Source: Clostridiales bacterium (GTDB taxonomy: Bacteria > Bacillota > Clostridia > Christensenellales > Aristaeellaceae). From it: DNA of 47,216 bases. Each line of letters begins with the position of its first letter. Positions within the stretch are counted from its first letter, which is position 1. The position numbers were made by a program, and so were the translations under genes. Below the pieces are notes generated by a model. The model saw nothing but the letters and a program-made list of their open reading frames with translations, was not told the DNA's origin and ran no database searches. The DNA is taken from NCBI GenBank assembly GCA_012729115.1, contig JAAYDR010000043.1:1-47216 (forward strand). The letters run 5' to 3'. Below, piece by piece: positions 6,391 through 35,355 of the stretch.

Positions 6391-6909
6391 CTACAGCTCA
6401 ATCCAGTATCTGGCAAAGCGCTTCTCCCCGAGGTTCACCACATTTTCCAACACCGCTCCCTGGTGCTCCATCACCCTGGCAGAGGCCCTGTTCCAGGTCT
6501 CGCAGGTGAGGAGCACCTTTTTCATCCCTGATCTTCTGCACTCCTTAAGCCCTAAACCCAGCATTGCTGTGGCATAGCCCTTTCCCCGTTCACTGGGACG
6601 AATACCATAGCCGATGTGTCCTCCATACAAGCGAAGATACTCATTTAGCCCGTAGCGCAAGTTGATCGCCCCCAAGATGCGCCCGGGCTTTTGGTCTCCC
6701 ATCAGAAAAAAAGTGTCGGCACGTACCTTGTCCCCCAGGTTATCACCGTTGGAGTATTGCTCGGTTTTATGCCAAAAATCAAGATAACTGTCAAGATCCA
6801 AAGTGAGGCTGTAAGGCACGATGGGTTCCTCTGCCGCGCGTATCTCCCCCACGATATCAAGCCATGCAGCTTCATGGTGAAGGCCTGGTCTTTCCAGCCA
6901 AAGACTCAT
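6391..6909 (-). CDS. GNAT family N-acetyltransferase
   Basis: 172 residues with the GNAT fold pattern. The acetyl-CoA pyrophosphate-binding motif is R-G-K-G-Y-A in RPSERGKGYATAMLGLGLKEC, preceded by the central strand HIGYGIRP. The C-terminal VLLTCETWNRASARVMEHQGAV resembles the RimJ/RimL-like Acetyltransf_3 group, where Asn precedes the final strand. The substrate is unknown. A G-rich GGGGGG site precedes the ATG. It lies 33 bases downstream of the DUF554 gene on the same strand, so they are probably co-transcribed. Confidence 0.85.
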   Translation of the reverse strand: MSLWLERPGLHHEAAWLDIVGEIRAAEEPIVPYSLTLDLDSYLDFWHKTEQYSNGDNLGDKVRADTFFLMGDQKPGRILGAINLRYGLNEYLRLYGGHIGYGIRPSERGKGYATAMLGLGLKECRRSGMKKVLLTCETWNRASARVMEHQGAVLENVVNLGEKRFARYWIEL

Positions 6910-10818: not shown

Positions 10819-11634
10819 TTATTGATTTGGTTCGCTGCGACACTCCTCCGCGGCCAGTGCGGTCAGGGAGGTTAGGGTCTTCGTGTCCATGAGCGTCATG
10901 GAAAGGCCCAAATAATTCTGGATCTGTTCAATGGTCTCTCTGATGTATCCCAAGGCCCGATCCGGCGATACCTCTGCCTTGTCGGGCTTGTGGGGATTGG
11001 CGGAAACCATCACCCGCACCTCCTCTGGTGAGATTACGGCCACATGCAGTTTCATATGATCGTGTTCCTCGCCAAAAAAGTTCCGAAGGGCTACCTCCAG
11101 GCGATCACTTCCGTAATGCCAGCGCTCGGTGATAAAGTTGTCCCCCTGGGGTATCGACAGCCGAATGCGCAGAAAAGGTGCGTCGATCTTTTCGGGGCAG
11201 CGCAGCATGCGGTGATGGGTCAGTATGTAGTCACGGGTGGGTGCCATTCCGGAAAGCAGCTTTTTCATCCAGCGCTCCTGCACCATCTTCAGACGGTATC
11301 CCTCATCATACTCATCATCGGAATCATCCGCGTGAAGCTGATTGAGCAGCTGATAAACCTCCCTCATGATTGCCCATTGACTTTGTTCCGTGTCGGCAAT
11401 CGCAAAAACCGGCATTAGGGAATACTGCTCGTCCATGTAAACGTTCAGAGGGGCAAAGGCCGGGTCATTGTCTATGGCGATCGCATCAATGTGATGCATT
11501 CGCATACATTCCTTTGCATCGTCCACAGTACTACGCAAACGGGGGGGCTTGTACCCCATCGCTTCCCAGCCCTCCATGGAGGCAAACATCTCCTCAACTC
11601 GTGCATCCTTGGTGACGATTAGCAACCTGTACAC
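10819..11634 (-). CDS. Uncharacterised protein with receiver-like N-terminal domain
   Basis: 271 residues. The start (V)YRLLIVTKDARVEEMF, then HIDAIAIDND and LMPVFAIADT, follow the beta1, beta3 and beta4 pattern of response-regulator receivers, with Asp residues near the acidic pocket. I see no clear helix-turn-helix in the rest. The central part is acidic (HADDSDDEYDEGY) and the C-terminal half is alpha/beta (LHVAVISPEEVRVMVSANPH). The ATG-proximal choice: GTG at 11634 has GGAGGG 6 bases upstream; further upstream codons lie in the promoter. It has its own strong promoter and is followed after 35 bases by the SPFH gene. Function is unknown. Confidence 0.6.
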   Translation of the reverse strand: MYRLLIVTKDARVEEMFASMEGWEAMGYKPPRLRSTVDDAKECMRMHHIDAIAIDNDPAFAPLNVYMDEQYSLMPVFAIADTEQSQWAIMREVYQLLNQLHADDSDDEYDEGYRLKMVQERWMKKLLSGMAPTRDYILTHHRMLRCPEKIDAPFLRIRLSIPQGDNFITERWHYGSDRLEVALRNFFGEEHDHMKLHVAVISPEEVRVMVSANPHKPDKAEVSPDRALGYIRETIEQIQNYLGLSMTLMDTKTLTSLTALAAEECRSEPNQ

Positions 11635-11673
11635 GCGCAACCCTCCATGTCCTCTGATATGGCTTCGTCCCCC

Positions 11674-11702
11674 ATTATACTCATAAAAGATAGAAATTTC
11701 AA
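11674..11702 (-). promoter_or_regulatory. Strong SigA promoter for the receiver-like/SPFH pair
   Basis: TTGAAA, a 17-base spacer and a perfect TATAAT on the minus strand, about 40 bases before the GTG start. Confidence 0.8.
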
Positions 11703-11764
11703 TGATATACAGAATTTGTGTGCCGGCCTTGGAAAACAAAGTCTATCATGGAGCAAAATCGCCG

Positions 11765-14700
11765 TCAGGAGGCCTTGGCCGGCAAGTCGATATGAAGCTC
11801 TTTGGCCAAATCTACCAGAGTATCCAGGGCTGTAACGATCTGCTCCGGCTTGTGCTCACTGATGACACAAAAGCGCAGCCTCGCCTTGTTCTTTGGAACG
11901 GCGGGATACACGGCGGGGGGTACGAAAACCCCTCGCTCGCGCATCTTGTTGCTCAACAGGAAGGCGTCCTCATCCTTGCCCACCAACACAGGCAGTATGG
12001 CGGTATGGCCGGCCAGACAAATGTTCAGGTTGCGCTTCTCTGCCTCCTCCACAAAGGTGTCTATGTTGCGTTTCATGGACTGCATAATCGCGGGATTGCT
12101 TCTGAGCAGGCGGATGGAGCATAGGGTTGCCGCCGCCAAGGGCGGCGATATGCCCACGCTGAACACAAAGCCGGGCAGGTTGTAGCGCAGGTATTCAATG
12201 ATCGCCTTGGGTCCGGCCAGATAGCCGCCGCAGGTCCCCAGTCCTTTGGAGAGGGTCCCCATCTTGATGTCGATGTCATCAGGCTGAAGATGAAAGTATT
12301 CGTCAACACCACCGCCGGCTTCCCCAATGACACAAGCGCTATGAGCCTCGTCCACCATCAGGAAGCATCCGTACTTCTTTTTAAGCTCCACAAACTTGGG
12401 TACCGGAGCGATGTCACCGTCCATACTGTAAGCACCCTCGATGATGATGAGTACTTTTTCATAGCGGTGGCGCTGAGCTTTGAGGATCCCTTCAAGGGCT
12501 TCATAATCGTTGTGGGGAAAAGGTTTTGCTGTGGCAAGGCTTAGGCGGCATCCCTGATCTACCGAATTGTGCGCAAGCGCATCAAACACGATTAAATCTT
12601 TCTTGCCACAGAAGTTGCCCACAACCGTAACGTTGGTGGAGTGCCCACCGACAAGAACCAAGGCGCTTTCCGCATGCTTCCACTGGGCCAACTCACTCTC
12701 CAATTCCTGGTAGAGAGTCTTCTCCCCCGCCAGCAGCCGGCTGCCGCTGGCGCTGGTACCATACTGGTCAATGGCCTTCTTGGCAGCCTCCATGACCTCA
12801 GGACGCCCGCTCATGCCTACGTAATTGTAACTTCCAAAGTTGAGCACTTCATGACCTGCCATGAGGCTCTTGTCCTTCAGGGCTGAATCATGGCACACAA
12901 AGTAGGGATTATCCATGCCGCTTTCCATCAAACCCTGCATGCGTGCCTGGAAGCTCTGATACTCAGGCGTATCCTCAAAGCAGGTGATGGGGGTTATTTC
13001 CTCATCCTCCGGACGGGCTGCCTCATTCTCATACGCTACATTGCCGGTGATCTTATCATAGAGCAGCGCGCTCAGATCGTTGACGGAGGTACAACGTCCA
13101 TACTCCTCCACGGGGATTACCACATTGAAAAGTTCCTCAACCTTGAGAGATATGGAGAGAACCTGCAGGCTGTCCCCCTTCAGATCATCAATAAAATGGG
13201 CATCGTCATGGATCTCCGTTTCCGGAAGCACCAATGCTTCGGCATAAAGAGCGCGAACCTTGTGTTTGATCTCCTCCATCTGCAGGTCAGTGGGCTGCAC
13301 CTCCTTCACCTGGATATCCACCGGGGGTGGTACAGGTTCGGATTCCCGCTTGACGGTGAGGCTAAGGTCCCGGTAGGCCAGCTTCTTGCCCTCGATGCCT
13401 TGCTTTAGCTCGATCCGCTTCACCTTGATGCCATTGACAAGGGGAAGCCGTTCCGGGGTGACCAGAACCCGGGTGAGACGCTTCATGGTGGGCAGCTTGG
13501 CGTTGAGTGCTACCACCTGCTTCATTAAACTTTCCAGGAAGGAATCATCTTTGTAATGCTCACCTACGTTAAGCACCAGGGTGATATCTTCATACTTTTG
13601 ATTCTTGCCGGGCCTTTTGATACCCAGCACCGTCATCTGATCGTAACCCTCCAGTGCGGAAAACACGTCTTCCAGCTCATCCGGATACACGTTCTCCCCG
13701 GACTCGTTGATGATTATATCCTTGCACCGGCCTTCTACGAAGACCCGGCCATCCTTCCCGAGCCGGACAATGTCCCCGGTGGGGTACCAGCCGCCCTCCA
13801 GCACATCCGGGGGCAAGAGGATGCCGTCCACCAATCGGCCTGTGTGGATGGATGCGCCCTTGATAAGCATCTCACCCCTGCGGCCGGAAGCATCGGTCTG
13901 GCGGAGACGGTACTGTACGTTGCTCAGGGGCTTGCCCACGGAGCCGGAGATCCGCTTGCGCAGGCTCATGGACACTTCCACGCTGGTCAGCGCGGTTTCC
14001 GTCATGCCGAAGCCGCAGACGGTATAATAGCCCAGGCCATTGAACAGCTTTAAATGCTCGGTGGGTGTGTGGCTGCCACCCAGGATCACCACCCGCAGCT
14101 GGCTGCCCAGGGCGTTCTCCAAAATGCTTTTAAACAGAACCTGCCCTCCCAGCCAAAGACCGAATCGAGGTGCGATCCTCTGGGTCCCCAGGCTCAGGTA
14201 CATCATGGCATTGAAAAGGCCCTGCTTAAGCCTGCTCTCTTTGGCAAGCTTCTTGCGAAGCGTAGTACACATGTTATTGGCCAACAAGGGCACAGTGATC
14301 ATCATCTCCACCCGGCAACGCCGAGCGGTCTGCACAATGGTAGCAGGAGAGCGATCCTTCAGGTACACATTGGTATACCCGATGAAGCTAACCCACAACA
14401 AATTCGCAATGAAGCCCAACACATGGTGATAGGGCAAAAAGGCAAGCACTCGCATATTACGGTTATCAATGAGGCGCTTGTTTTCCTCGTAAATAAGCTG
14501 AGAGCTGAGCACCTGTTCCGCGATGGCTCTGCCGTTGTACACAAAAACGCGGCTGGTGCTGGTTGTTCCGCTAGTACAAAGGGCCACATTGTCTCCATAA
14601 TCCGGGATAAAATCCTGGGCTGCTGGTGCTGCAAAAAGTTCAACAGCTTTTATTAGCTTGACACCCGTCAGGCTCCGCTCCTTTTGGGTGATGATGATGT

Positions 14701-15061
14701 CGCTTCCCGCCTGGCTCATCAGGTAGGCAATCATATCATCCGGGAGGTTTGCATCCAGCAGCAGGGCATTGTACCCAGCCTGGATGACCCCCCAGAAGGT
14801 AGGGTACCACTCCTTACAGGTTTCCAGGGAGATGGCAACAAAAGCACCGCGTTTTTCAACTCCAATGGCATTGCGCAGATAGGCTGCATAATTGACCGAC
14901 CATTGCCTGTACTGGGTGTAGGTGGTGATTTGCTCTTTATCATCCACCAACTCCACTGCGGCGGCCACATCCCCATATGCGCAGGTCAGTTCAAACAGGT
15001 TGCGCAGGCTCATGTCCTGGCGCAAAGCTTGGCTTTTCTCCATGATATCATATATTGCCAT
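11765..15061 (-). CDS. Trimodular fusion: acyl-activating enzyme - acyl carrier protein - alpha-oxoamine synthase
   Basis: 1098 residues. Residues 1-560 are an AMP-binding acyl-CoA/ACP synthetase: A3 TSGTTSTSR (163), A5 GFGMTET (350), A7 YPTGD, A8 GRCKDIIIN and an A10 Lys in NGIKVKR. Residues 590-675 are an acyl carrier protein with the phosphopantetheine Ser in LKGDSLQ (S631). Residues 715-1090 are a PLP alpha-oxoamine synthase (serine palmitoyltransferase/KBL/ALAS family): His in ALAHNS (H831), VDEAHSA (D904, H907) and the Schiff-base Lys in GTLSKGLG (K939). Inferred role: activate a fatty acid, load the carrier, and condense it with an amino acid to a 2-amino-3-ketone, as in sphingoid-base synthesis. 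The amino acid is not predictable here. Two starts, 15073 (overlaps the SDR stop, no usable site) and 15061 (GAGGGA), are possible. Confidence 0.9.
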   Translation of the reverse strand: MAIYDIMEKSQALRQDMSLRNLFELTCAYGDVAAAVELVDDKEQITTYTQYRQWSVNYAAYLRNAIGVEKRGAFVAISLETCKEWYPTFWGVIQAGYNALLLDANLPDDMIAYLMSQAGSDIIITQKERSLTGVKLIKAVELFAAPAAQDFIPDYGDNVALCTSGTTSTSRVFVYNGRAIAEQVLSSQLIYEENKRLIDNRNMRVLAFLPYHHVLGFIANLLWVSFIGYTNVYLKDRSPATIVQTARRCRVEMMITVPLLANNMCTTLRKKLAKESRLKQGLFNAMMYLSLGTQRIAPRFGLWLGGQVLFKSILENALGSQLRVVILGGSHTPTEHLKLFNGLGYYTVCGFGMTETALTSVEVSMSLRKRISGSVGKPLSNVQYRLRQTDASGRRGEMLIKGASIHTGRLVDGILLPPDVLEGGWYPTGDIVRLGKDGRVFVEGRCKDIIINESGENVYPDELEDVFSALEGYDQMTVLGIKRPGKNQKYEDITLVLNVGEHYKDDSFLESLMKQVVALNAKLPTMKRLTRVLVTPERLPLVNGIKVKRIELKQGIEGKKLAYRDLSLTVKRESEPVPPPVDIQVKEVQPTDLQMEEIKHKVRALYAEALVLPETEIHDDAHFIDDLKGDSLQVLSISLKVEELFNVVIPVEEYGRCTSVNDLSALLYDKITGNVAYENEAARPEDEEITPITCFEDTPEYQSFQARMQGLMESGMDNPYFVCHDSALKDKSLMAGHEVLNFGSYNYVGMSGRPEVMEAAKKAIDQYGTSASGSRLLAGEKTLYQELESELAQWKHAESALVLVGGHSTNVTVVGNFCGKKDLIVFDALAHNSVDQGCRLSLATAKPFPHNDYEALEGILKAQRHRYEKVLIIIEGAYSMDGDIAPVPKFVELKKKYGCFLMVDEAHSACVIGEAGGGVDEYFHLQPDDIDIKMGTLSKGLGTCGGYLAGPKAIIEYLRYNLPGFVFSVGISPPLAAATLCSIRLLRSNPAIMQSMKRNIDTFVEEAEKRNLNICLAGHTAILPVLVGKDEDAFLLSNKMRERGVFVPPAVYPAVPKNKARLRFCVISEHKPEQIVTALDTLVDLAKELHIDLPAKAS

Positions 15062-15069
15062 GGCTTCCC

Positions 15070-15894
15070 TCATCCCTTCTTCACATAATAGGCGCGTATC
15101 CCGGCAAAAAACAAACCGGGGGGAAGCAACCCATGAAGCCAACACGCTGTCCGTTGATCCAATCGGGCGATTCGCAGGCGATATCGCGGTTTCCGACGGT
15201 TGGCTTGACGGAGCACCTTCAGGCCCAGGGTTTCAGGGTGCAGCCCGCCCATTTCGTCCCGCTGAATGGTCATGCAAGTGCTGGCGTACTCTTTGGCATA
15301 AGTCTGGAGAAGGTTTCCCAGTTTTAAGCGATAGGCCTGGCTCCCCTTCTGATGATCCCCGGGCTCCACCACACACACCGAAATTCCAAAGGGCCTCACC
15401 TCCATGGCCAGGCACTGGGCGTAACCCTCGATGGCATGTTTACTGGCGGTATACGCGCTTTGGAATGGGATACCCAGGATACCGTTGAGCGAGGAAAACA
15501 GAAAAAGCTTTCCGGAGCCCTGTTCGCGCATAACAGGCAATACTTTGGTTATCATGCGAGTCATGCCCAGGAAGTTGGTACTCATCACCCGTTCATACAG
15601 ATCTGTTCCTGTTTCCTCACAAGAGCCCAGGGATAACAAGCCTGCGGAGTAGCAAAGCACATCCACCCGGTTGCTCAATGTGAGCGCCTCCCTGACAAAG
15701 GCATTGCAGCTACCTTCGTCAGTTACGTCCAGGGGCAAGTGGTAATACGCCTCCCCCACTTGCCGGTCTTCTGGCATCGTGAAGGAGCGTGCTCCCGCCA
15801 CCACCAGCCACCCGTCCTTGGCGAACGCTTGCGCGGTCGCCAAGCCCAGACCGCTGGATGCGCCAATAATCCATGCGGTTCCTTTCGTTTTCAC
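15070..15894 (-). CDS. Classical short-chain dehydrogenase/reductase, possible 3-keto-base reductase
   Basis: 274 residues. NAD(P)-binding GASSGLG (11-17), the CYSAG motif, Asn in STNFLG (N107), Ser in FLFSS (134-135), and YTASK (Y148, K152) give a full SDR catalytic set. The C-terminus is basic then hydrophobic (LHGLLPPGLFFAGIRAYYV), as in membrane-associated reductases such as eukaryotic 3-ketodihydrosphingosine reductase. Start: GTG 15894 has GGGGAGG 5 bases upstream and directly precedes the Rossmann strand. The stop lies 8 bases before the fusion protein's ATG at 15061 (and overlaps an alternative ATG at 15073), so translation is coupled. Reducing the ketone made by the fusion enzyme is the natural inference, not proven. 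Confidence 0.88.
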   Translation of the reverse strand: MKTKGTAWIIGASSGLGLATAQAFAKDGWLVVAGARSFTMPEDRQVGEAYYHLPLDVTDEGSCNAFVREALTLSNRVDVLCYSAGLLSLGSCEETGTDLYERVMSTNFLGMTRMITKVLPVMREQGSGKLFLFSSLNGILGIPFQSAYTASKHAIEGYAQCLAMEVRPFGISVCVVEPGDHQKGSQAYRLKLGNLLQTYAKEYASTCMTIQRDEMGGLHPETLGLKVLRQANRRKPRYRLRIARLDQRTACWLHGLLPPGLFFAGIRAYYVKKG

Positions 15895-15946: not shown

Positions 15947-15975
15947 AGTATACCGCAAAGGGGAACAGGTTGCAA
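15947..15975 (-). promoter_or_regulatory. Promoter of the SDR/fusion operon
   Basis: TTGCAA, a 17-base spacer and TATACT on the minus strand, about 50 bases before the GTG start of the SDR gene. It lies divergent to the ECF gene promoter. Confidence 0.7.
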
Positions 15976-16906: not shown

Positions 16907-19471
16907 TTATCGTCCGATCCGCTTAAGCGTCGCCTGCCATCCCAGGTCGATGGCCTTTTGATGGGAGGTCGCATAGGGCCCGATCGCTTTTACCTGTTGC
17001 TCGGTACGGGGGAAGTGGATGCACAGGTGCCCTGGGAAGTTATTGTTCTTGATGTGGTAGGTTTCATGGGGTGTATTATGAGTGGAAGCCATGTACACAG
17101 TGCCATCGCTGAACACAACCCATACCGCCTTCGGACTCCAGGTGGTAATCCCGCCGAAAGCCCGGTTCATGCTGGCGGTATCATTTGCGGTGAGAGGCTC
17201 CGCATCCGCGTGGGCTCCGATACTGAAAATATTCAGCTGCCAACTGATACCTGTTACAAAGTCATATACCGTCACATTGGGGTAGATCTTGCAGCGGGCC
17301 TTGATTTCAGTATACCAGTTAGCATATCGCACATTGGCCGGGTTGGGTGCACCGGTCAGGCTTAAAGCCGGCGCTTTGGTGGATGTGGAGGCAGAATCTG
17401 CCTTCTTGGCAGTGCTGCTGTTAAGCTTGGCAAGGGTCAGACTGCCAGCAATGCCGTCTGCCGTGAGGCTATTGCGTTTTTGGAACGCAATTAAGGCCAG
17501 GCTTGTTTTTGAACCGAACTTGCCATCTGCTGTGCCGGTCAGATAGCCCAGGGCAATCAGGCGGAGCTGTAAGTCCTTGACGGAGGCGCTCACCATACCT
17601 TCCTTGAGGATGGTGGCGGTCTGCACCGTCTTCTTCACCACAGCGGTGGCATACAGCGTGGACTGGGTTTTGGCTCCGGCAACCCCATCCCCGATGAGGT
17701 TATTGGCCTTCTGAAAGGCGATCAGGGCACTTTTGGTACCTACACCGAACTTGCCGTCTGCTACGCCAGTCAGATATCCCAACTCGATCAAACGGTTTTG
17801 AAGAGCGGTTACGTCGCTGCCGGTACTTCCATAGCGAAGTGTTATTCCCGGAGCTACAAGGGCGCTGCCCCGGACAGCACTTTCACTGTACAGCACGCTC
17901 TGGGTCTGGAAACCCGCCTTGCCGTCCACCGCCAGGCCATTGGCCTTTTGGAAAGCGCGTACCGCAGTGATATCATCCTCCAGATACACACCGTCCAGAC
18001 GGGAAGAATAATACCCCAAGTCCATCAATCGTTGCTGAAGCTGCTTGACAGCATTGCCTCTGGACCCTGCCATAATGACTACCGTTGTCTCTGGCGTCAA
18101 AGGAGCGGTTGTGACAACAGGGATGGCAGTCGCCATGGCGCTTGGTGCGTTAATCCCAAAGAGCACAGCCCGGGTCTGAATCCCGCACACCCCATCCTCC
18201 TTCAATGAGCTCTTCTTCTGAAAAGCCTTGAGGGCCTTGACACTGGAAGCGCCAAACTTACCGTCCACCTTGCCGTCATAATAGCCCAGATCCTTAAGTC
18301 GCTGCTGTACCGTCTTGGCATCTTCACCCTTGTCCCCTTCCCGGACAATCCCAGTGGGTTGGGCGGAAACAGGCATAGGGGTGGGGGTGACGATGGTGCC
18401 GGCAGAAAGGGCTGTGGCACCAAACAGCCTATCCTGGGTGGCTGAATCCGCCTCGCCCGTCACACGCATGTCATGCAGCAGCTGAAAATCCTTGATTGCC
18501 TGAACAGTGGCCTTATCGCAGGTTCCGCTGACTTCGCCCAAGTAAAATCCGAGCTCCTTAAGCCGTGCCTGAAGTTTTTGCACAGGCTCCCCCACCTTGC
18601 CGGACGTGATGGTAAAGCCCGGAAGGGGGGGGATGGTTTTCAGGATTTTACGATAGCCCTGAGGGTTCTTGGGGGTGCCCTCATAAAGCAGAAGCTGGAA
18701 ATTGCCATCGGCGATGCCATCCTGCTTCAAGCCATTTCTTTTTTTACAGGCATTCACGGCCTCTTCTGTTTGAGCTCCATATTTGGAATCAATTTTGCCT
18801 TTGTAATAGGTAAGCTCCGTCAGGGCCTCCTGCAATGCTTTCACCATCGCCCCGGCACTCCCCTTTTGCAGAGTGCCATACTTGGCAGCCTCCGGGCTGG
18901 GTGTGGTCTCCGCTTTTGGCGTGGGGGTTGGGATGTTGGCAAGATTCACATAGGAGCTCACCACATAGCCTGTCTTGCCTTTGTACTTCACTTTGGCAAA
19001 GCCAGTGGAGGTAAGGCTTACAACAGTCACCACCTCATCCCTGGGGATGGACAACAGTACATCGGCGGTGGCATTGTCTGTTTTACGAAGCTTGACCCGG
19101 TCAATGGTATTGGTGTCATAAGGGTACTTGTCCACAGCCGACGGTGCCGGCTGGGAGGAGGCGACTGTGGGCCCCGGGTCGGCTGCGGGAGATACGCCGT
19201 CTACATATTCCTTCAGGGCATAGCCGGTAACGGTTCCAACTTTGATCTGGTAATAGGAGCCGGACACACCCAGGATGGTGATGCTATCACCAGCTTGCAG
19301 GCGCTTCACCACCACCGCTGAGGAACTGGCGGATTTGCGCAGGTTTACATTCTCCCCGCATGTTGTATCATAGGGATAGGCAGCGGCCAATGCGGACCAA
19401 CTGATAGACGCCAGCCAAATGAAGCACAGCAACCCTGCCACCCAGCGGCTTGTCCTTGCGCCCTGTCTCAT
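16907..19471 (-). CDS. Secreted SH3/peptidoglycan-binding repeat protein with L,D-transpeptidase-like C-terminus
   Basis: 854 residues. A signal peptide (cut near ALAAA, about residue 30) is followed by two bacterial SH3 domains (31-90, 115-175), each starting YPYDT. Then come six PG_binding_1 repeats of about 60 residues (pattern LQxRLxxLGYYxGxxDGKFGxxTxxAxxAFQKxNxLxxDGxAGxxTxxxL) joined by Pro/Thr-rich linkers. The last 150 residues (VYDFVTGISWQLN...TYHIKNNNFPGHLCIHF) resemble a YkuD-type fold in which GHLCIHF stands in for the usual SHGCIRL catalytic segment. Probable cell-wall or cortex enzyme. ATG 19471 (GGAGGG) is chosen; an in-frame ATG at 19501 lies at the predicted transcript start. 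Confidence 0.85.
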   Translation of the reverse strand: MRQGARTSRWVAGLLCFIWLASISWSALAAAYPYDTTCGENVNLRKSASSSAVVVKRLQAGDSITILGVSGSYYQIKVGTVTGYALKEYVDGVSPAADPGPTVASSQPAPSAVDKYPYDTNTIDRVKLRKTDNATADVLLSIPRDEVVTVVSLTSTGFAKVKYKGKTGYVVSSYVNLANIPTPTPKAETTPSPEAAKYGTLQKGSAGAMVKALQEALTELTYYKGKIDSKYGAQTEEAVNACKKRNGLKQDGIADGNFQLLLYEGTPKNPQGYRKILKTIPPLPGFTITSGKVGEPVQKLQARLKELGFYLGEVSGTCDKATVQAIKDFQLLHDMRVTGEADSATQDRLFGATALSAGTIVTPTPMPVSAQPTGIVREGDKGEDAKTVQQRLKDLGYYDGKVDGKFGASSVKALKAFQKKSSLKEDGVCGIQTRAVLFGINAPSAMATAIPVVTTAPLTPETTVVIMAGSRGNAVKQLQQRLMDLGYYSSRLDGVYLEDDITAVRAFQKANGLAVDGKAGFQTQSVLYSESAVRGSALVAPGITLRYGSTGSDVTALQNRLIELGYLTGVADGKFGVGTKSALIAFQKANNLIGDGVAGAKTQSTLYATAVVKKTVQTATILKEGMVSASVKDLQLRLIALGYLTGTADGKFGSKTSLALIAFQKRNSLTADGIAGSLTLAKLNSSTAKKADSASTSTKAPALSLTGAPNPANVRYANWYTEIKARCKIYPNVTVYDFVTGISWQLNIFSIGAHADAEPLTANDTASMNRAFGGITTWSPKAVWVVFSDGTVYMASTHNTPHETYHIKNNNFPGHLCIHFPRTEQQVKAIGPYATSHQKAIDLGWQATLKRIGR

Positions 19472-19510
19472 CTTGCACCCTCCCATTGGGACATACTTCA
19501 TATCATCACC

Positions 19511-19572: not shown

Positions 19573-20265
19573 CTATAATTTCCTGGGAATCATTCTGGCC
19601 TTCTTGCTGCGGCCAAGTTTCTTACGCACATAGGCTTCAGCCTCCGGGTAGAGGCCTGTGGGGCAGGTTACCACCATTACCTGCCAATAGCTGGGCTGAA
19701 AGAACAGGAGCTGCCGTGTCTCCCGCCAGCAACGCACCCGGCGCACATCCTGCCAATGTATTTCTACCCTGTGAATCAGCATGGGGCCGGGCACAACATC
19801 CCGCTGAGGGTTGAGTTTCTCCACAGCCTGCGGGGAGAGAAAGCGGGCGTACAGCCTGATGGCTGTGGGGTTCTGGAGGTAGGTATCTCTGCGTACCCCC
19901 TCCTTGTCAAGGGTGAAATGAACTACCTCCGGACCCTGAATGAGCAAGATTAGCATCATGAGCAACAGCATAACACCCAAAGCCGTCACCAGCGTCCAGA
20001 AAAAGCCCTGTAAAAACAATGCCTGAATTCCCCTGCCACCGCTGAGCACGCCCTCCAGCAGCAAACTCAGCACCGCAACAAGAAAGAGCACCGGCAGCAC
20101 CACCCGCAAGGCATGGTTCCACGCAAACCAATCCCGCACAGGAATTCTTCCGATCTGGAAGGATAGTCTCTCATTCGTTTTACTGAGCTTTCCGGCGCAG
20201 AAAGGACAGGCATCTCCCAGTGGAACCTCCCTTTTACATCTGCGGCAATAATTCATCATGGACAT
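19573..20265 (-). CDS. Zinc-ribbon membrane protein of unknown function
   Basis: 230 residues. The N-terminus is a zinc ribbon, CRRC (7-10) and CPFC (20-23). Two membrane helices follow (about 53-75 and 83-110), then a soluble domain of about 120 residues (VVHFTLDKEGV; YWQVMVVTCPTGLYPEAEAYVRKKLG) that has a PH-like strand pattern by eye. Basic residues at the C-terminus end in RKL. The start at 20265 has GGAGG 7 bases upstream. It is divergent from the LysM/collagen-like gene and lies downstream of no co-directional gene. No function is known to me. Confidence 0.7.
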   Translation of the reverse strand: MSMMNYCRRCKREVPLGDACPFCAGKLSKTNERLSFQIGRIPVRDWFAWNHALRVVLPVLFLVAVLSLLLEGVLSGGRGIQALFLQGFFWTLVTALGVMLLLMMLILLIQGPEVVHFTLDKEGVRRDTYLQNPTAIRLYARFLSPQAVEKLNPQRDVVPGPMLIHRVEIHWQDVRRVRCWRETRQLLFFQPSYWQVMVVTCPTGLYPEAEAYVRKKLGRSKKARMIPRKL

Positions 20266-20310
20266 TTTGTTTCCTCCAAGCATCCCTGCAAACAGGCACT
20301 TTCTTCCATT

Positions 20311-20328
20311 CCCCATCATACAATGGGG
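20311..20328 (+). promoter_or_regulatory. Promoter with overlapping inverted repeat, possibly mother-cell sigma type
   Basis: CATACAAT (20317-20324), as in SigE/SigK -10 elements, lies inside the inverted repeat CCCCAT-CATACA-ATGGGG. A CAC at 17 bases upstream fits a loose SigK -35, but no ATATT is seen for SigE. It sits 30 bases before the LysM protein start. Confidence 0.35.
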
Positions 20329-20355
20329 AGAGAACACCTGGAAAGGAGCATTTCG

Positions 20356-21015
20356 ATGATACGGCCAACCATGTCCGGAACTACTCCCTCCGAAAGAATC
20401 TGCGCTGAGGAATACATCGTTAAAAAAGGTGACAGCTTCTACCTGATCAGTCATAAGCTTGGCGTGCCCTTACGGGATCTGCTGGCTGCCAACCGGGACA
20501 TACATCCTGCCCGTCTGATGGTGGGCGATGTTCTGTGCATCCCCAGAGAAGAGGACGACAGCGTTCAAAATGGCGCAACCGGCAAAACGGGAGCCACAGG
20601 GGTGACTGGTCCCACCGGTGAAACCGGGCCCACAGAGGTCACGCCTCCCGAGGATACATCAGGTGGAGTAGAAACCGGGCCCACTGGACCCAACTGCCCT
20701 GTAGAAGAACAGCACACCGTACAAGCCGGTCAAACCGTGGCCGATCTCCAACTGCGCAATCTGGTAAGCCGTAACACAATCGCTACCGCCAACCCCAATG
20801 TCAATCTGGAACAGCTTGCTCCCGGCCAGGTGTTATGCATCCCCACGGAGAACATCCCCTGCACCGTGCCTCCAACCTATACACTGAAAGAGAATGACAC
20901 GCTGGAAACCGTAGCCATCCGCTTTAATCTGCCGGTGGCATCTTTACTGCGGGCCAATCCTTGCCTGGCTCCCCAGGACTTTGAATGCGGTGTGACCGTC
21001 ATCCTGCCTTCATAA
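20356..21015 (+). CDS. Triple LysM protein with collagen-like repeat
   Basis: 219 residues. LysM1 (about 20-63, YIVKKGDSFYLISHKLGVPLRDLLAANRD) is followed by seven uninterrupted G-X-T triplets (73-93), a short acidic linker and GPTGPN. LysM2 (119-163) and LysM3 (175-217) follow. Each LysM contains VLCIP or an equivalent ending. There is no signal peptide, which fits a spore coat/exosporium protein assembled from the mother cell rather than a secreted one; this is inference, helped by the possible mother-cell promoter. ATG 20356 has AAAGGAG. The stop codon abuts the stop of the SNF2 gene on the other strand with no space between. Confidence 0.85.
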   Translation: MIRPTMSGTTPSERICAEEYIVKKGDSFYLISHKLGVPLRDLLAANRDIHPARLMVGDVLCIPREEDDSVQNGATGKTGATGVTGPTGETGPTEVTPPEDTSGGVETGPTGPNCPVEEQHTVQAGQTVADLQLRNLVSRNTIATANPNVNLEQLAPGQVLCIPTENIPCTVPPTYTLKENDTLETVAIRFNLPVASLLRANPCLAPQDFECGVTVILPS

Positions 21016-31013: not shown

Positions 31014-32111
31014 TTATGTGGACAACTCCCGATGTTTGTGTTTCTTTGCGTAAATTTCCCCACCGACCCAGACTGCCAGGGGAATCGCCACCTGGAAGGG
31101 GAATGCGTAATAGGGATAATAGGCTAAAAATGCTATCATATCCATTGTATTTTTATAGGCAATCGCGCCAAGTGCCAGGGCGAGCATACCCATTGGCAGG
31201 ACAATTGGCCGGCAATGATCCAAATCAAAAAGAGAGGCCATACCTTTGCTGGCCGCCAGCAAACAGCAGGCAGTTTTGACAATCCCTGCGAACTGGAAGT
31301 TGGTGGAGATGGAACTCTCGATCCGGGCGAGAAAGTCGCCAACCTGGATGATGCGCGCCGCACTAAAGGATGGAAAATAGTTCAGGGACATGATGGTTGC
31401 ACCCAACAGGCTCAGGTTCCTGATAAAAACCAGCAGGAATGTAACCGTGGTAATGATCAGGCTATACAAGAACATCTTGTAAGGGTTTGCCTTTTTCTGA
31501 AAAGAACCGGCCAAGCCTAAAAAGATCACGGTCTCCGTATAGGGGAAGGAAAACACCTCAAAGGTACTCCTGGCAATTTTTGCAGGGGTGTGATTGAGCA
31601 CCGGCATGAAGTTTTCAAGCCTGATGTCCGGGATGGAGGCTACAAAGGTAAGTGCAACAATCGCCAGCACAAATGCACTCATAACCAATGACCATTTTCC
31701 AATGGACGACATGCTGCTCCTGACCAAATAAACCGTGGTGAGGACCATTAAAATCAGGATGGGCAGCTGCGGCGTTTCGGGCATCGTAGAGACCTGGATA
31801 AATTCCGAAAAATTGCGCAGGACCAGGGCGCTTAAATACACAGCATACCAGATGTACAGCACGGTGAGCACCTTGCCCGCAATTTTCCCAAAGATTAGCT
31901 CCAGCACTTGGAACAGATCCTTTTGGGGAAACAGCCGGATGATCCGTCCATACACCAGGAACAGAGGGATAACCAGCAGGCTTGCCAACAATATGGTGAA
32001 CCAGCCGTCCTGTTCCACGCCTCCTGTGATGCCAATCACCACGCTGCTGCCAAAATTGAAAAGCACAATGCTAAACATCACCTGGGAAAATGTAGCTTTT
32101 TCATTCTTCAT
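31014..32111 (-). CDS. Spore germination permease subunit (GerAB family)
   Basis: 365 residues, ten predicted helices, amino acid permease-like superfamily. The start KATFSQVMFSIVLFNFGSSVVIG, the second-helix GWFTILLASLLVIPLFLVYGRIIRLFP and the SFPYTETVIFLGL segment are typical of GerAB/GerKB subunits, which bind the germinant. It is the last gene of a four-gene receptor operon with GerAA, GerAC and a small two-helix protein. AGAAAGGAA precedes the ATG. Confidence 0.93.
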   Translation of the reverse strand: MKNEKATFSQVMFSIVLFNFGSSVVIGITGGVEQDGWFTILLASLLVIPLFLVYGRIIRLFPQKDLFQVLELIFGKIAGKVLTVLYIWYAVYLSALVLRNFSEFIQVSTMPETPQLPILILMVLTTVYLVRSSMSSIGKWSLVMSAFVLAIVALTFVASIPDIRLENFMPVLNHTPAKIARSTFEVFSFPYTETVIFLGLAGSFQKKANPYKMFLYSLIITTVTFLLVFIRNLSLLGATIMSLNYFPSFSAARIIQVGDFLARIESSISTNFQFAGIVKTACCLLAASKGMASLFDLDHCRPIVLPMGMLALALGAIAYKNTMDMIAFLAYYPYYAFPFQVAIPLAVWVGGEIYAKKHKHRELST

Positions 32112-32147
32112 GGAGCGTTTCCTTTCTGTTGCATTTGGATAAACGCG

Positions 32148-32366
32148 CTAGTCTTCCAGGTGAAATATGGCTTCAATCACTTGTGTTATGCCTTCGCTGG
32201 GGGAGGGAACTGTAACACTAAGGCTGTATAGAATCAGCAAAACAAAGCTGATCAGCATGATAGCAATGTGAATGACTTTCACTTTTTTCTCCGAATGTTT
32301 CAGCACTGTCAACCACTCCATGAGCGTGGCAGGTACGAACAGGAGCAATACGATGGCTGTCAGCAT
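32148..32366 (-). CDS. Two-helix small membrane protein, putative germinant receptor D subunit
   Basis: 72 residues with two membrane helices (about 3-21 and 31-53) joined by a basic turn (KHSEKKVKV) and a short soluble tail. A strong GGGGGGTGA site precedes the ATG. It lies between the GerAC and GerAB genes. Small two-helix D subunits of similar size are known in some Bacillus germinant receptor operons and modulate receptor function. The assignment rests on size, topology and position, not on a clear sequence match. Confidence 0.65.
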   Translation of the reverse strand: MLTAIVLLLFVPATLMEWLTVLKHSEKKVKVIHIAIMLISFVLLILYSLSVTVPSPSEGITQVIEAIFHLED

Positions 32367-32378
32367 GATTTCACCCCC

Positions 32379-33515
32379 CTATTTGATAAATGCGGAATTA
32401 ACAATATGCACCTTGGAGGTAACCTTCACCTCCACAGTGGGGAATTGCTCCTCCCAGGTGGGCATCAACCTATCCCATAACATGGGGTCCTTCCTATAGA
32501 TCATTTCACCAAAGCCGAAGATATCGACGTTGTACTCTCGCTGGACCTTCACGATCATATCCTGAATGCTGTTTTGGATCAGTCGTTGCGCAGCATCCTC
32601 AATCAGTTTGACCTGTTCCTTGTCCATTGGGTCCATCTTGTTTAGATTCTCTGCAAGCGTAACATTGGTTATGGTTTTAATATCCACCACCATCCTGTCC
32701 TGTTCATAGGTATAGGATTTCCTGGTTTTATTCTCAAAAATTTCCAGGGAAATATCGTAAGTAGGCATTTCGCCCAGAGAAAGGGGCAAAATACCGCGCT
32801 CCAACATGTCTTCTACCATCAGGGCGTATTTGGCTTCCTCAGCGCTGAGAAAGCCCGCAAGCTTATCCCCTTTGCAAATGGCAATGCCGTTAAGTTCCGG
32901 TATTTCCTGGTCCTCCATTTTTATTTTATGAATTGCAGGCAGCAGCGCCGCATTTCTGGGAGAATTGATCATATCATAAAGCCTGTACAGATCAAAATGT
33001 ATCGTAGCTCCTGTGGCCTGTTTATCCTCCGCGACGATATCGTATATGGTGCTGGACATGATTCCGCCGGAATCCTTGGGGCTTTCCAGAATTGATTTCG
33101 CCGTATCCTCCTGGGACAAAACAACGCTCATGGTCTCCCGGCACTCAGCGTCCCTTAAGAACCATTCCAGGATTCCTGATAGACCCATTTCCCGAGCTAC
33201 TTCCTGGTTAACAGACACCAGCAACGCATTGCCAAAAAACAGCCTGTCCTCCTCTTTTTTTTTCGCGTTTCTGACAGCATCGAACAGTGTTTTCCCTTCG
33301 GATTCAACAAGCCTGCCTTTGACGGCATCATCCTTGCTCCCGCCCATCAAATCAGCGACTTCAAAGCTTATTTTGAATAAGTCGGCTTCCTTGTCAAAGT
33401 CGATGGCAATGCCCACCACCAGATCCATTTCGTCAAGACTTCGGTAATTCCAACAACCGGACAGTACTAACGCCAGCGCAACGCACATCAGGCATAATGA
33501 CAGACGCTTACCCAT
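32379..33515 (-). CDS. Spore germination lipoprotein (GerAC family)
   Basis: 378 residues. The lipobox LSGC at about residue 20 follows a hydrophobic signal (LCLMCVALALVLSGC); the mature start CWNYRSLDEMDLVVGIAIDFD is the typical GerAC N-terminus. The C-terminal domain with NKMDPMDKEQVKLIEDAAQRLIQNSIQDMI and FGFGEMIYRKDPMLWDRL is diagnostic. Start at 33515 is chosen over the ATG at 33521 because the GGAGGG spacing fits. It overlaps the end of the GerAA gene by 8 bases. Anchored to the outer face of the inner spore membrane. Confidence 0.94.
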   Translation of the reverse strand: MGKRLSLCLMCVALALVLSGCWNYRSLDEMDLVVGIAIDFDKEADLFKISFEVADLMGGSKDDAVKGRLVESEGKTLFDAVRNAKKKEEDRLFFGNALLVSVNQEVAREMGLSGILEWFLRDAECRETMSVVLSQEDTAKSILESPKDSGGIMSSTIYDIVAEDKQATGATIHFDLYRLYDMINSPRNAALLPAIHKIKMEDQEIPELNGIAICKGDKLAGFLSAEEAKYALMVEDMLERGILPLSLGEMPTYDISLEIFENKTRKSYTYEQDRMVVDIKTITNVTLAENLNKMDPMDKEQVKLIEDAAQRLIQNSIQDMIVKVQREYNVDIFGFGEMIYRKDPMLWDRLMPTWEEQFPTVEVKVTSKVHIVNSAFIK

Positions 33516-35061
33516 CGGCATTCCCTCCTGATTGACGTGTCTTGTTCTCCGTCAGGTTCCAGGGGCGCTTTCGCATCGTCCACCAGGGGGAACGGATGAG
33601 AATATCCTTGCTGTCCTGGAAGCTGAAGCTGCCTCTCATGGCAATCTGCTCTACACCGAAAGACGTCAGGTTGTTGATATGAATCAGCAGGATAGAAAGG
33701 CCAACCACGACACCGAAAAAACCAAAAGTTGAGGCCAGCAACAACAATAGCATGCGGGAATAGATGATGGGAGCGTTCAGCCTGGGCACCAATAGGCTGG
33801 TAATACCTGTAGCCGCCACGACAATGATCATAGGCGCGGCCACCAGGCTGGCATCCACGGCAGCCTGTCCGATAACCAACGCACCCACGATGCTCAGAGC
33901 CTGGCCGATATTGGATGGCATCCTAATCCCCGTTTCCCGGAGGACATCAAACACCAACAACATTATCACAGCTTCAATGGCTGCAGGCAAAGGCACACGC
34001 TGCCTTTCCATGGCAATCCTGATTAACAGCGGCAAGGGCAACATCTCCTGGTGGAAGGCTACTATGGAGATGAAAAGCGCAGGCACTGAGACAGTCATAA
34101 AGAATGCGATAATGCGCAGAATCCTGGCAAAGGACGTATAGTAAAAATTGAAGTAGTAATCCTCGCCGCTTTGAAAGTTCTCGATAAACAAATAAGGAAC
34201 TGTGAGCACCATTGGTGTACCATCCACAAGGACGGCAATACGGCCCTCCAGGAGTTTGGCCACTACCGCATCGGGCCGCTCCGTGTAGCCCGTGGTGCGG
34301 AAGGGTGAATAATTGTGATCGCGAATCAACTCGGTGAGATAGTTGGAGTCCAGGACACCGTCGATGTCAATTTGATTCAGCCGCCGCAAAAGTTCCTCCA
34401 GAATGTTTTTATCGGCAAGACTGTCCAGATAACACACACAGACATCGGTCTGGGTACGCCTGCCCAGTGTGAGATGCTTTGCTTTTAGATCATGCGTACG
34501 CAGCCGCCGCAGCACCTGAGAGAGGTTTGACATAAGCGATTCCGTAAAGCCCTCCCTTGGTCCAACCAGTACTTTTTCATTATCAGGTTCGCCTATGGAA
34601 CGGAGGCTGAATTGCTTGGTATTAAGCGTTGCGGCTTGGGCGCAGTTGTCACATAACAGAACGGTATCACCATAGGTCACGCTTTCAATGAGCTCCCTAA
34701 ATCCGTCGATTTTTTTACCCTCGCCCACCTGCACCACACCGGCCAGCAGCGCGTCAATCAACGTAACGCCTTCGCCTGGCACGATGGTCATGAGTGGCCT
34801 GACAATATTGTCATTAATGATCTGGGAGTTCACCACCCCATCGCAAAAAACCAGAAAGTACCGGCCATGGCTGTTCTCTTCACCGGGTATCAGTTTATAG
34901 CGCACATACCCCGCATCGGTAAACAGCTTTTTGACAATCGCCATGTTCTCATCCAGTGACGTGGAAAATTTGCAGTCATCAAAAGGGCGATTCAGCTTGT
35001 CAACCGCTTCCTTTACCTTCTGCTCCTTTTTCCTCTCAGGCTTCCTAAACAATTGAAACAT
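33508..35061 (-). CDS. Spore germination protein (GerAA/SpoVAF family)
   Basis: 517 residues. A soluble N-terminal part of about 280 residues (LGRRTQTDVCVCYLDSLADKNILEELLRRLNQIDIDGVLDSNYLTELI is the family hallmark) is followed by about five helices (RILRIIAFFMTVSVPALFISIVAFH; LPAAIEAVIMLLVFDVLRETGIRMP). GerAA subunits assemble into the pentameric ion channel of the germinant receptor. ATG 35061 (AGAGGAAG) is chosen over an open frame of 70 more codons that covers the promoter. First gene of the operon. Confidence 0.95.
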   Translation of the reverse strand: MFQLFRKPERKKEQKVKEAVDKLNRPFDDCKFSTSLDENMAIVKKLFTDAGYVRYKLIPGEENSHGRYFLVFCDGVVNSQIINDNIVRPLMTIVPGEGVTLIDALLAGVVQVGEGKKIDGFRELIESVTYGDTVLLCDNCAQAATLNTKQFSLRSIGEPDNEKVLVGPREGFTESLMSNLSQVLRRLRTHDLKAKHLTLGRRTQTDVCVCYLDSLADKNILEELLRRLNQIDIDGVLDSNYLTELIRDHNYSPFRTTGYTERPDAVVAKLLEGRIAVLVDGTPMVLTVPYLFIENFQSGEDYYFNFYYTSFARILRIIAFFMTVSVPALFISIVAFHQEMLPLPLLIRIAMERQRVPLPAAIEAVIMLLVFDVLRETGIRMPSNIGQALSIVGALVIGQAAVDASLVAAPMIIVVAATGITSLLVPRLNAPIIYSRMLLLLLASTFGFFGVVVGLSILLIHINNLTSFGVEQIAMRGSFSFQDSKDILIRSPWWTMRKRPWNLTENKTRQSGGNADG

Positions 35062-35150
35062 AACTTCCTCTTTAACGCGTAGCCGCCCGGGCGTTTTGAC
35101 GCGTCCATTCTTCCAAGCAAGGCATCTGTCTGCCTGCCGGGCAATGCTTC

Positions 35151-35180
35151 TAGTATTAAATGCCAAGAATGTTTTTATTC
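35151..35180 (-). promoter_or_regulatory. SigG-like promoter of the germination operon
   Basis: On the minus strand GAATA, an 18-base spacer and AATACTA fit the SigG consensus (GHATR-N18-CATWHTA) except for one base. It lies about 90 bases before the GerAA start. Known gerA-type operons are transcribed by SigG in the forespore. Confidence 0.65.
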
Positions 35181-35355
35181 CGCCAATGCCGCTCATCGCT
35201 TCACAAGCATTTTCATTATTCATTGATAAACAGTGCGGGGGACATGCTGCAACAGAGCATTCCGCATGCAAGACTGTGATTCATTGTAGCGGGCCGATGA
35301 GTACACCTTGGCCGGCAGCGCAAACAGACCCCAATTATAAATTACTGCGGCACTC

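Follow-up and report, generated by a model that had tools for sequence, protein, structure and literature searches.

The gene pair and its predicted products

In the 47,216-nucleotide stretch of Clostridiales DNA analysed here (GenBank assembly GCA_012729115.1, contig JAAYDR010000043.1; hereafter the window), which belongs to a genome of 3.15 Mb in 124 contigs, two adjoining genes on the minus strand encode an acyl-ligase/carrier/alpha-oxoamine synthase (AOS) fusion protein and a short-chain dehydrogenase/reductase (SDR). The synthase gene (11765..15061, minus), identified by Pfam, alignment and an AlphaFold2 model, begins with ATG and encodes 1098 amino acids; initiation at an alternative GTG, at 15145, would lengthen it to 1126. 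The SDR gene lies upstream (15070..15894, minus), starts with a GTG preceded by ggggagg, encodes 274 residues and stops 8 bases before the synthase start. A previous sequence-only reading of this DNA had described a single 1098-residue protein with ligase, carrier and AOS domains and their catalytic residues in place, coupled to an SDR with a YxxxK motif, and open reading frames, Pfam and alignment confirmed both parts of this description. Its assignment of the pair to one promoter was not confirmed. A candidate upstream of the SDR gene was a weak sigma-70-like site (15947..15975, minus) that matches 9 of 12 consensus positions and is no proof of function, one of 8 promoter-like sites in a scan of the window for which 3.9 were expected from shuffled sequences. 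The scan also gave three terminator-like matches, none of them within the SDR-synthase gap.

Pfam placed AMP-binding at residues 64-434 (E-value 2.3e-40 for the protein), PP-binding at 629-695 (1.4e-9) and Aminotran_1_2 at 766-1109 (1.4e-46), in the numbering of the 1126-residue form. The acyl-adenylate-forming ligase domain (residues ~1-560; 13382..15061, minus) contains TSGTT at 163-167, GFGMTE at 350-355, GRxKD at 444-448 and Lys546, which we take to be motifs A3, A5, A8 and A10. The carrier domain, recognised by Pfam PP-binding (residues ~598-670; 13052..13270, minus), has its phosphopantetheine serine, Ser631, in a GDSL motif. The AOS domain (residues 687-1098; 11765..13003, minus), delimited by sequence and fold matches, contains H831, D904, H907, K939 and R1063, together with S774, V969, A1054 and Y745, which are considered below. 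The SDR, a 3-ketodihydrosphingosine reductase (KDSR)-like protein, matched Pfam adh_short (4.3e-37, on a longer 360-residue reading) and has a Ser-Tyr-x-x-x-Lys motif and a glycine-rich nucleotide site, of which S135, Y148, K152, G11 and G17 were invariant in 28 rows.

The AlphaFold2 model of the fused protein, built with 38 chosen relatives, had a mean predicted local distance difference test score (pLDDT) of 83.5 and a predicted template modelling score (pTM) of 0.51, with low confidence between the domains, at 570-591 and 674-695. A Foldseek search with this model returned serine palmitoyltransferase (SPT) 8guh first (E 2.4e-33, template modelling score 0.91 by target), with KBL, the Thermus AOS and BioF close behind, and the predicted fold alone would not name the substrate. 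The same list held the adenylation-peptidyl carrier didomain of McyG, 4r0m (722 alignment columns, TMq 0.40, rmsd 9.6), which fits the ligase-carrier half. When the AOS domain was compared by sequence with proteins of known structure, the first match was SPT 3a2b/8guh.

Conservation, distribution and gene linkage

The catalytic residues are strongly conserved among relatives of the fused protein. In an alignment of 38 chosen chains, at 38-69% identity to the window protein, D630, S631, H831, D904, H907, K939 and R1063 were invariant, as were the ligase residues G350, T354, E355, G429, D430, G444, K447 and K546. The carrier Asp-Ser (S631) and the AOS lysine (K939) were present in all 75 distinct rows derived from 80 full-length sequences, window included. 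The features that define the AOS superfamily, namely the pyridoxal phosphate (PLP) lysine, the stacking His, Asp-x-x-His and the carboxylate Arg, were found in 27/27 fused-family rows. The phosphate loop of the window protein, TSGTTSTSR, has its motif intact, and departures from the ligase motifs were confined to few relatives (TADTT with GMSKD in L073, TAGTV in L086 and TSGST in three rows).

Of 120 confirmed relatives, the 80 best were kept, and these came from Clostridia (including Clostridium rhizosphaerae), Bacteroidales, Treponema and one metagenome-assembled genome (MAG) labelled Deltaproteobacterium/Myxococcota. A search of 40 genomes, that of the window plus 39 relatives, detected the full chain in 9 of 16 others in the genus, in 3 of 7 others in the family and, at the level of the order, in 1 of 16, apparently split over two contigs. 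In a class-wide sample, the window's own genome was the only one of 245 with the chain at E <= 1e-150. The Bacteroidales copies nest among those of Clostridia, and transfer is therefore likely. Some genomes have the AOS part only (L018 and L094-L098, at 69-72% identity); in the tree these proteins branch from two points within the fused clade and therefore look derived from the fused chain by loss of the ligase and carrier domains.

The sequence-only reading had proposed looking for the same three-domain architecture with an SDR neighbour, and such relatives were found, with the two genes coupled in about half of the loci. In 36 of 80 loci no more than 250 bases separate an SDR gene from the fused gene; the SDR gene is upstream in 31 of these, downstream in 3 (L072, L084 and L087), upstream of a partial copy in 1 and divergent in 1 (L074). 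In another 5 it is found elsewhere in the same locus. Of the others, 29 have room upstream but no SDR gene and 11 offer no upstream room, L077 falling in both counts. Within the family, an SDR at 47-58% identity was present in 12/12 other full-chain genomes, as compared to 4/11 genomes without the chain (p 0.0013, related MAGs being counted as independent here and in the Fisher test given below). Chance adjacency of the SDR gene was rejected on the basis of the locus counts together with the SDR tree and the class-wide SDR counts and SDR-AOS pairing described in the next section.

The patchy spread of the chain and the nesting of its Bacteroidales copies would also suit a stand-alone secondary metabolite or signal, a small diffusible amino-alcohol in the style of PigH- or CqsA-type products, for which the ligase would load a carboxylate that is short, aromatic or otherwise non-fatty, and the kinship of the AOS domain with polyketide synthase (PKS)-linked enzymes (see below) points the same way. 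We nevertheless consider this quite unlikely. Within 4 kb of the fused gene, every neighbour family other than the SDR is limited to 6 or fewer of the 80 loci; the best NCBIfam model of the ligase domain is a long-chain fatty-acid CoA ligase, PRK06187, though at 132.5 bits it is far under the cut-off of 476; and the SDR is KDSR-like. A biosynthetic-cluster context was rejected within the fetched loci, where none of the neighbours indicated a secondary metabolite; the sequence-only reading had named neighbours of that kind as evidence against its proposal of a sphingoid-base-like pathway.

The AOS domain and its reductase partner

To place the AOS domain we used two midpoint-rooted trees of 69 and 63 rows. 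The first contained 34 hand-picked fused chains and the window protein, less L077, which was too short; the second left out fifteen rows (long branches and near-duplicates) and added nine. Three groups meet at one junction in these trees: the SPTs; KBL, BioF and ALAS; and the fused family with a PKS-terminal AOS of Planktothrix (L100) and an RkpG-like AOS of Sinorhizobium (C101, L101), the last group having support of 100/100. A position of the AOS domain on the SPT side, suggested by the first tree, was dropped when the second showed it to be an artefact of midpoint rooting of the three-way junction. Clustering with KBL or BioF, which had been named beforehand as evidence against the proposed pathway, was not seen. 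A KBL, BioF or ALAS identity was ruled out, since the domain falls outside their group in the trees, does not share their N/T and V/T positions and misses their cut-offs.

These positions were read at three diagnostic sites, 81, 274 and 358 in S. multivorum SPT numbering (S774, V969 and A1054 of the fused protein), in 27 fused-family rows and in reference rows for 5 SPTs, 3 KBL-type enzymes, 2 ALAS and 2 BioF. SPTs have S, A and A; KBL-type enzymes V/A, N/T and V/T, the Ala at 81 being the mutation of the engineered V79A protein 8s1y, whose wild type has Val; ALAS T/S, T and T; and BioF S, T and T. The fused family has S, then V in 23/27 and A in 4/27 rows, then A. Thus, A1054 follows SPT against KBL, ALAS and BioF and is the sole clean SPT-type site of the three, and S774 agrees with SPT but separates the family from KBL only, as BioF and one of two ALAS share the serine. 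Residue 969 is small and hydrophobic where SPTs have Ala and the others N/T. In addition, Tyr745 stands where most rows have Asn52, a trait common to two of three proteobacterial SPT rows; a Tyr at that position has been noted for some SPTs (PMC9304779).

Residue 969 also bears on cysteate as the amino acid, which would lead into the sulfonolipid (capnine) route. SulA is described as having the SPT fold and most of its active-site residues, with a preference for acyl-acyl carrier protein (acyl-ACP) (PMC9304779), which would favour this route. However, the SulA active-site Lys281 is absent, being replaced by V969 in the window protein and by Val or Ala in 27/27 fused-family rows, and the cysteate route, which we regard as extremely improbable, was rejected on this ground. 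Separately, two Bacteroidales genomes that also carry the fused synthase, G040 (L170 4751-6803) and G045 (L171 2247-4299), have an AOS with the SulA-type Lys beside an SDR, and these are candidate sulfonolipid genes.

We then considered the SDR. Its best NCBIfam model was the KDSR model NF049977, at 188.7 bits, with the next model at 174.9. The same model was top for 7/7 scanned SDRs beside standalone AOS genes and for two further synthase-linked SDRs (L072, L084), as compared to 0/6 control SDRs (E. coli FabG and YbbO, the L101 and L170 SDRs and two other SDRs of the window's own genome). When 14 genomes were scanned with this model, each had one SDR at 189-304 bits over nearly the full model and all others at 115.5 bits or less; wherever the fused gene or an SPT-clade AOS has this kind of SDR linked to it, the linked SDR was the top one, and in the window's own genome it was the window SDR. 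Matches of 170-348 bits were obtained in 13 of 16 further genomes, two of which (G043, G044) have two each. Among the 22 genomes reached through relatives (21 with the full chain, one with the AOS only), 19 have a full-length KDSR-like SDR; the class background, at E <= 1e-45, was 19 among 117 other genomes (Fisher p 2.8e-10).

A tree of the SDRs, which left out seven of the 28 partner rows (L077 for ambiguous bases and six near-duplicates), contained a 38-row KDSR-like group with support 90/98, and 13/13 other SDRs fell outside it (nine of the window's own genome, E. coli FabG, the L101 SDR and two beside SulA-like AOS genes). Within it, four synthase-linked SDRs (two from Treponema, one each from Eubacterium and Oscillospiraceae) and four located beside SPT-clade AOS genes formed one group, 99/98. 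Judged by sequence, the SDR is KDSR-like and of the same group as the SDRs beside SPT-clade AOS genes. Synthase-linked and SPT-linked SDRs interleave in the tree, and nothing else speaks as strongly for a ketone of the SPT kind as the product that the fused protein would deliver.

The SPT-linked SDRs come from pairs in which a KDSR-like SDR adjoins a standalone AOS, found in G033, G017, G026, G021, G032, C. rhizosphaerae and G047 (L163-L167, L172 and L173, in this order); those AOS proteins fall in the SPT clade with support 99/86. In C. rhizosphaerae YIM B02515 the SPT-clade gene (L172) occurs in addition to the fused gene (L066). Similar pairs occur in the 19 class genomes with a KDSR-like SDR, which were chosen independently of the fused gene. 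In eight of them (G067, G072, G106, G110, G134, G142, G156 and G162) at most 330 bases separate the SDR from an AOS whose score with the SPT model is 391-570 bits; 17 have some AOS at 1e-60, linked in these 8 and elsewhere in 9, and G109 and G164 have none. Such standalone pairs amount to a plain two-gene sphingoid-base set in Clostridia, separate from the fused protein.

Predicted pathway and competing evidence

From these results we consider it probable that the window encodes a self-loading enzyme that acts like serine palmitoyltransferase, together with a KDSR-like ketoreductase, and that the two make a sphinganine-like base. The ligase domain would use ATP to convert a fatty acid to its adenylate, and the acyl group would then be moved onto the phosphopantetheine arm at Ser631 of the built-in carrier. 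The AOS domain, with PLP on Lys939, would bind the amino acid, most likely L-serine, and condense it with the carrier-bound acyl chain with loss of CO2, giving a 3-keto sphingoid base, whose ketone the upstream KDSR-like SDR would reduce to a sphinganine-like 2-amino-1,3-diol. The domains, the catalytic residues and their conservation, the gene coupling and the kinship of the SDR are observed, whereas we infer the fatty acid, the serine, the chain length and the direction of reduction. The proposal of the sequence-only reading that the three steps are fused, with an adjoining ketoreductase and a sphingoid-base-like product, is supported, and the grouping of the KDSR-like SDR with SPT-linked SDRs adds new support.

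Several observations weigh against this interpretation. In neither tree does the AOS domain fall among the characterised SPTs, and since the junction of SPTs, KBL-BioF-ALAS and the fused family has no trustworthy root, the amino acid is not given by the tree. The curated cut-offs of three SPT models were missed (303.4, 271.3 and 229.4 bits against cut-offs of 640, 500 and 670), and the top NCBIfam model of the domain was BioF, at 342.6 bits against a cut-off of 426.45. The reference rows used for the diagnostic sites are few; at residue 969 the prevailing Val departs from the Ala of SPT, and the PLP-stacking site reads His-Asn instead of the His-Ala of SPT. A Black Sea study considered that AOS proteins outside its Spt-like clade were probably not sphingolipid enzymes (PMC11334938), and a cyanobacterial SPT-like AOS was reported to yield no 3-ketodihydrosphingosine (3-KDS) in E. 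coli, and the host of this AOS to be without sphingolipids (PMC8895605).

The separate clade, the Asn after the stacking His and Val969 would also be in keeping with the same machine using alanine or glycine, giving a 1-deoxy-sphingoid base or a terminal amino-ketone or amino-alcohol lipid, and KBL and the Thermus AOS are equally close in fold. On the other hand, A1054 is SPT-like, S774 is unlike KBL and the partner SDR is of a kind found beside SPT-clade AOS genes too, and we consider it unlikely that either amino acid is the substrate.

The evidence from the SDR and its linkage has weak points of its own. The window SDR missed the KDSR cut-off of 400 bits, which was passed in 0/14, 0/16 and 0/118 genomes and in 0/14 control genomes. 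By score the model is unspecific, with matches at 1e-45 in 3/14 control genomes (B. subtilis, L. lactis and H. volcanii) and at 1e-30 in 11/14. Three of the 22 genomes reached through relatives were without a full-length KDSR-like SDR (G041 has a partial one, at 108.5 bits, and G049 and G056 had none at 1e-30). Linkage is incomplete, as 29 of the 80 loci have upstream room but no SDR gene, and four genomes of the same genus (G005/L156, G006/L157, G008/L158 and G015/L159) keep the SDR with no match to the AOS region at E <= 0.001.

The SPT-like reading with serine is compatible with a further possibility that concerns the use of the product, in which a sphingoid-like lipid anchors a capsular or envelope polysaccharide, as in the RkpG/RkpH kind of system. 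The Sinorhizobium L101 AOS gene follows a chain with enoylreductase (ER), ketoreductase (KR) and carrier domains and is followed by genes for an SDR, a sulfatase-type protein and a Capsule_synth protein, which we take to be rkpA, G, H, I and J. The rkp clusters are described as PKS plus capsule genes (PMC3908369), and the Planktothrix PKS-AOS gene lies amid glycosyltransferase genes. We regard this use as very unlikely here: apart from the SDR no kind of neighbour recurs beside the fused gene beyond the 6 of 80 loci given above, and the SDR of L101 is not of the KDSR type, its best model being PRK06181.

Relation to known systems and to the host

Compared to the bacterial SPT of Sphingobacterium (3a2b/8guh), the fused enzyme has the same PLP-Lys AOS fold, the catalytic H, D, H, K and R and the Ala at A1054, but it is in a separate clade, at ~30% identity, with His-Asn for His-Ala and with a ligase and carrier of its own. 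Its nearest AOS group is that of Planktothrix L100 and Sinorhizobium L101, the latter having the window residues at all ten listed sites; in these, unlike the window protein, the acyl chain comes from PKS or fatty acid synthase-type modules, and the SDR of L101 is of another kind. In Planktothrix the AOS ends a type I PKS (L100 5581-13179, plasmid p3) in the order carrier-AOS. With a fatty acyl-AMP ligase and several glycosyltransferases encoded near it, this is a candidate amino-lipid glycolipid cluster.

A PKS-linked precedent has been described in Pseudomonas fluorescens MYb115, where PfSgaB, from an iterative-PKS cluster, showed SPT activity almost only with L-serine when acyl-CoA surrogates were supplied, and a KDSR-like SDR was proposed for the step after it (PMC12134224). 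By description, PfSgaA/B/C resembles the window pair in having an AOS in a two-gene core and a KDSR-like SDR in the cluster; it differs in that the chain there is built by the iterative PKS, whereas the window protein would load a ready-made acid with its ligase. In Rhodobacteria, carrier and synthetase genes accompany SPT (AcpR/AasR/SPT; PMC9386255), the three being separate proteins. In the AOS tree, the proteobacterial SPT group includes the Roseomonas SPT whose gene adjoins a carrier gene (L110); a gene near this SPT had no Pfam family. For KDSR itself (Bacteroides BT_0972, PMC9278070; NF049977), comparison was by the family model, which fits the window SDR, and likewise each of the nine further partner SDRs scanned, better than any other family, with the window SDR under the curated cut-off (189 vs 400 bits).

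The ligase-carrier-AOS layout is itself precedented in other phyla, according to a 2013 tabulation of A-CP-PLP2 proteins that includes Microscilla A1ZVW4 and Blastopirellula A3ZWL3, with the product marked unknown, and in which the AOS of a Synechococcus AMP-binding enzyme, B1XHP8, was modelled on SPT 3a2b (PMC3870968). In Pfam order, AMP-binding, carrier and Aminotran_1_2, A1ZVW4 and A3ZWL3 match the window protein; the available excerpt of that paper mentions no SDR partner. In open-licence PMC literature, judged by title and start of abstract, no description of the fused protein in Clostridia was found. As a whole, the sequence-only reading was partly supported. It was supported as to the fused steps, the SDR, the type of product and the Firmicute host, which is placed in Bacillota by its nearest named relatives and by spore-germination genes. 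It requires revision in that the SPT clade does not include the AOS domain, the layout has precedents and other Clostridia have standalone SPT-clade AOS and KDSR-like pairs.

The named genes around the pair are ordinary (ObgE, endonuclease III, spore-germination genes and a shikimate cluster). GerA, GerAC and spore permease types are encoded at 31014-35271 (minus), which points to a spore-forming host. The sequence-only reading had seen no N-acyltransferase nearby; one GNAT-type gene lies at 6391-6909, ~4.9 kb from the pair, and there is no sign of a link between this gene and the pair. An 864-residue protein encoded at 16907-19501 (minus) has 2 SH3_3 and 6 PG_binding_1 stretches; its C-terminal part is not named by Pfam. 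Two further genes, at 10819-11739 (minus) and 19573-20454 (minus), encode proteins without a Pfam match at 0.001; the first lies directly downstream of the synthase gene and, by eye, a counterpart follows the SDR gene in G005.

It is possible, and we put this forward tentatively, that anaerobic Bacillota of gut, rumen and digester, Treponema and some Bacteroidales rely for sphingoid bases on one self-loading enzyme, which would convert free fatty acid directly to 3-ketosphinganine without acyl-CoA or a separate acyl-ACP, and that the KDSR partner is exchangeable, serving the ordinary SPT of relatives as well. In the Treponema and some of the Bacteroidales concerned, no match passed the SPT-model cut-off. 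Bacteroides species are described as major sphingolipid producers of the gut (PMC10865984), and a survey of Black Sea MAGs reported Spt-like genes from 38 phyla (PMC11334938). If the proposed pathway is correct, Bacillota, Treponema and some Bacteroidales would be further potential sphingolipid producers, which searches based on the SPT clade or on curated SPT cut-offs would miss because the fused-family AOS lies outside both. A single chain that would load, carry and condense would also be a compact tool, with which the supply of acyl chains to a bacterial SPT would be testable with one purified protein. Sphingolipid building would then extend to bacteria not usually known for such lipids, relatives of gut and digester Clostridia.

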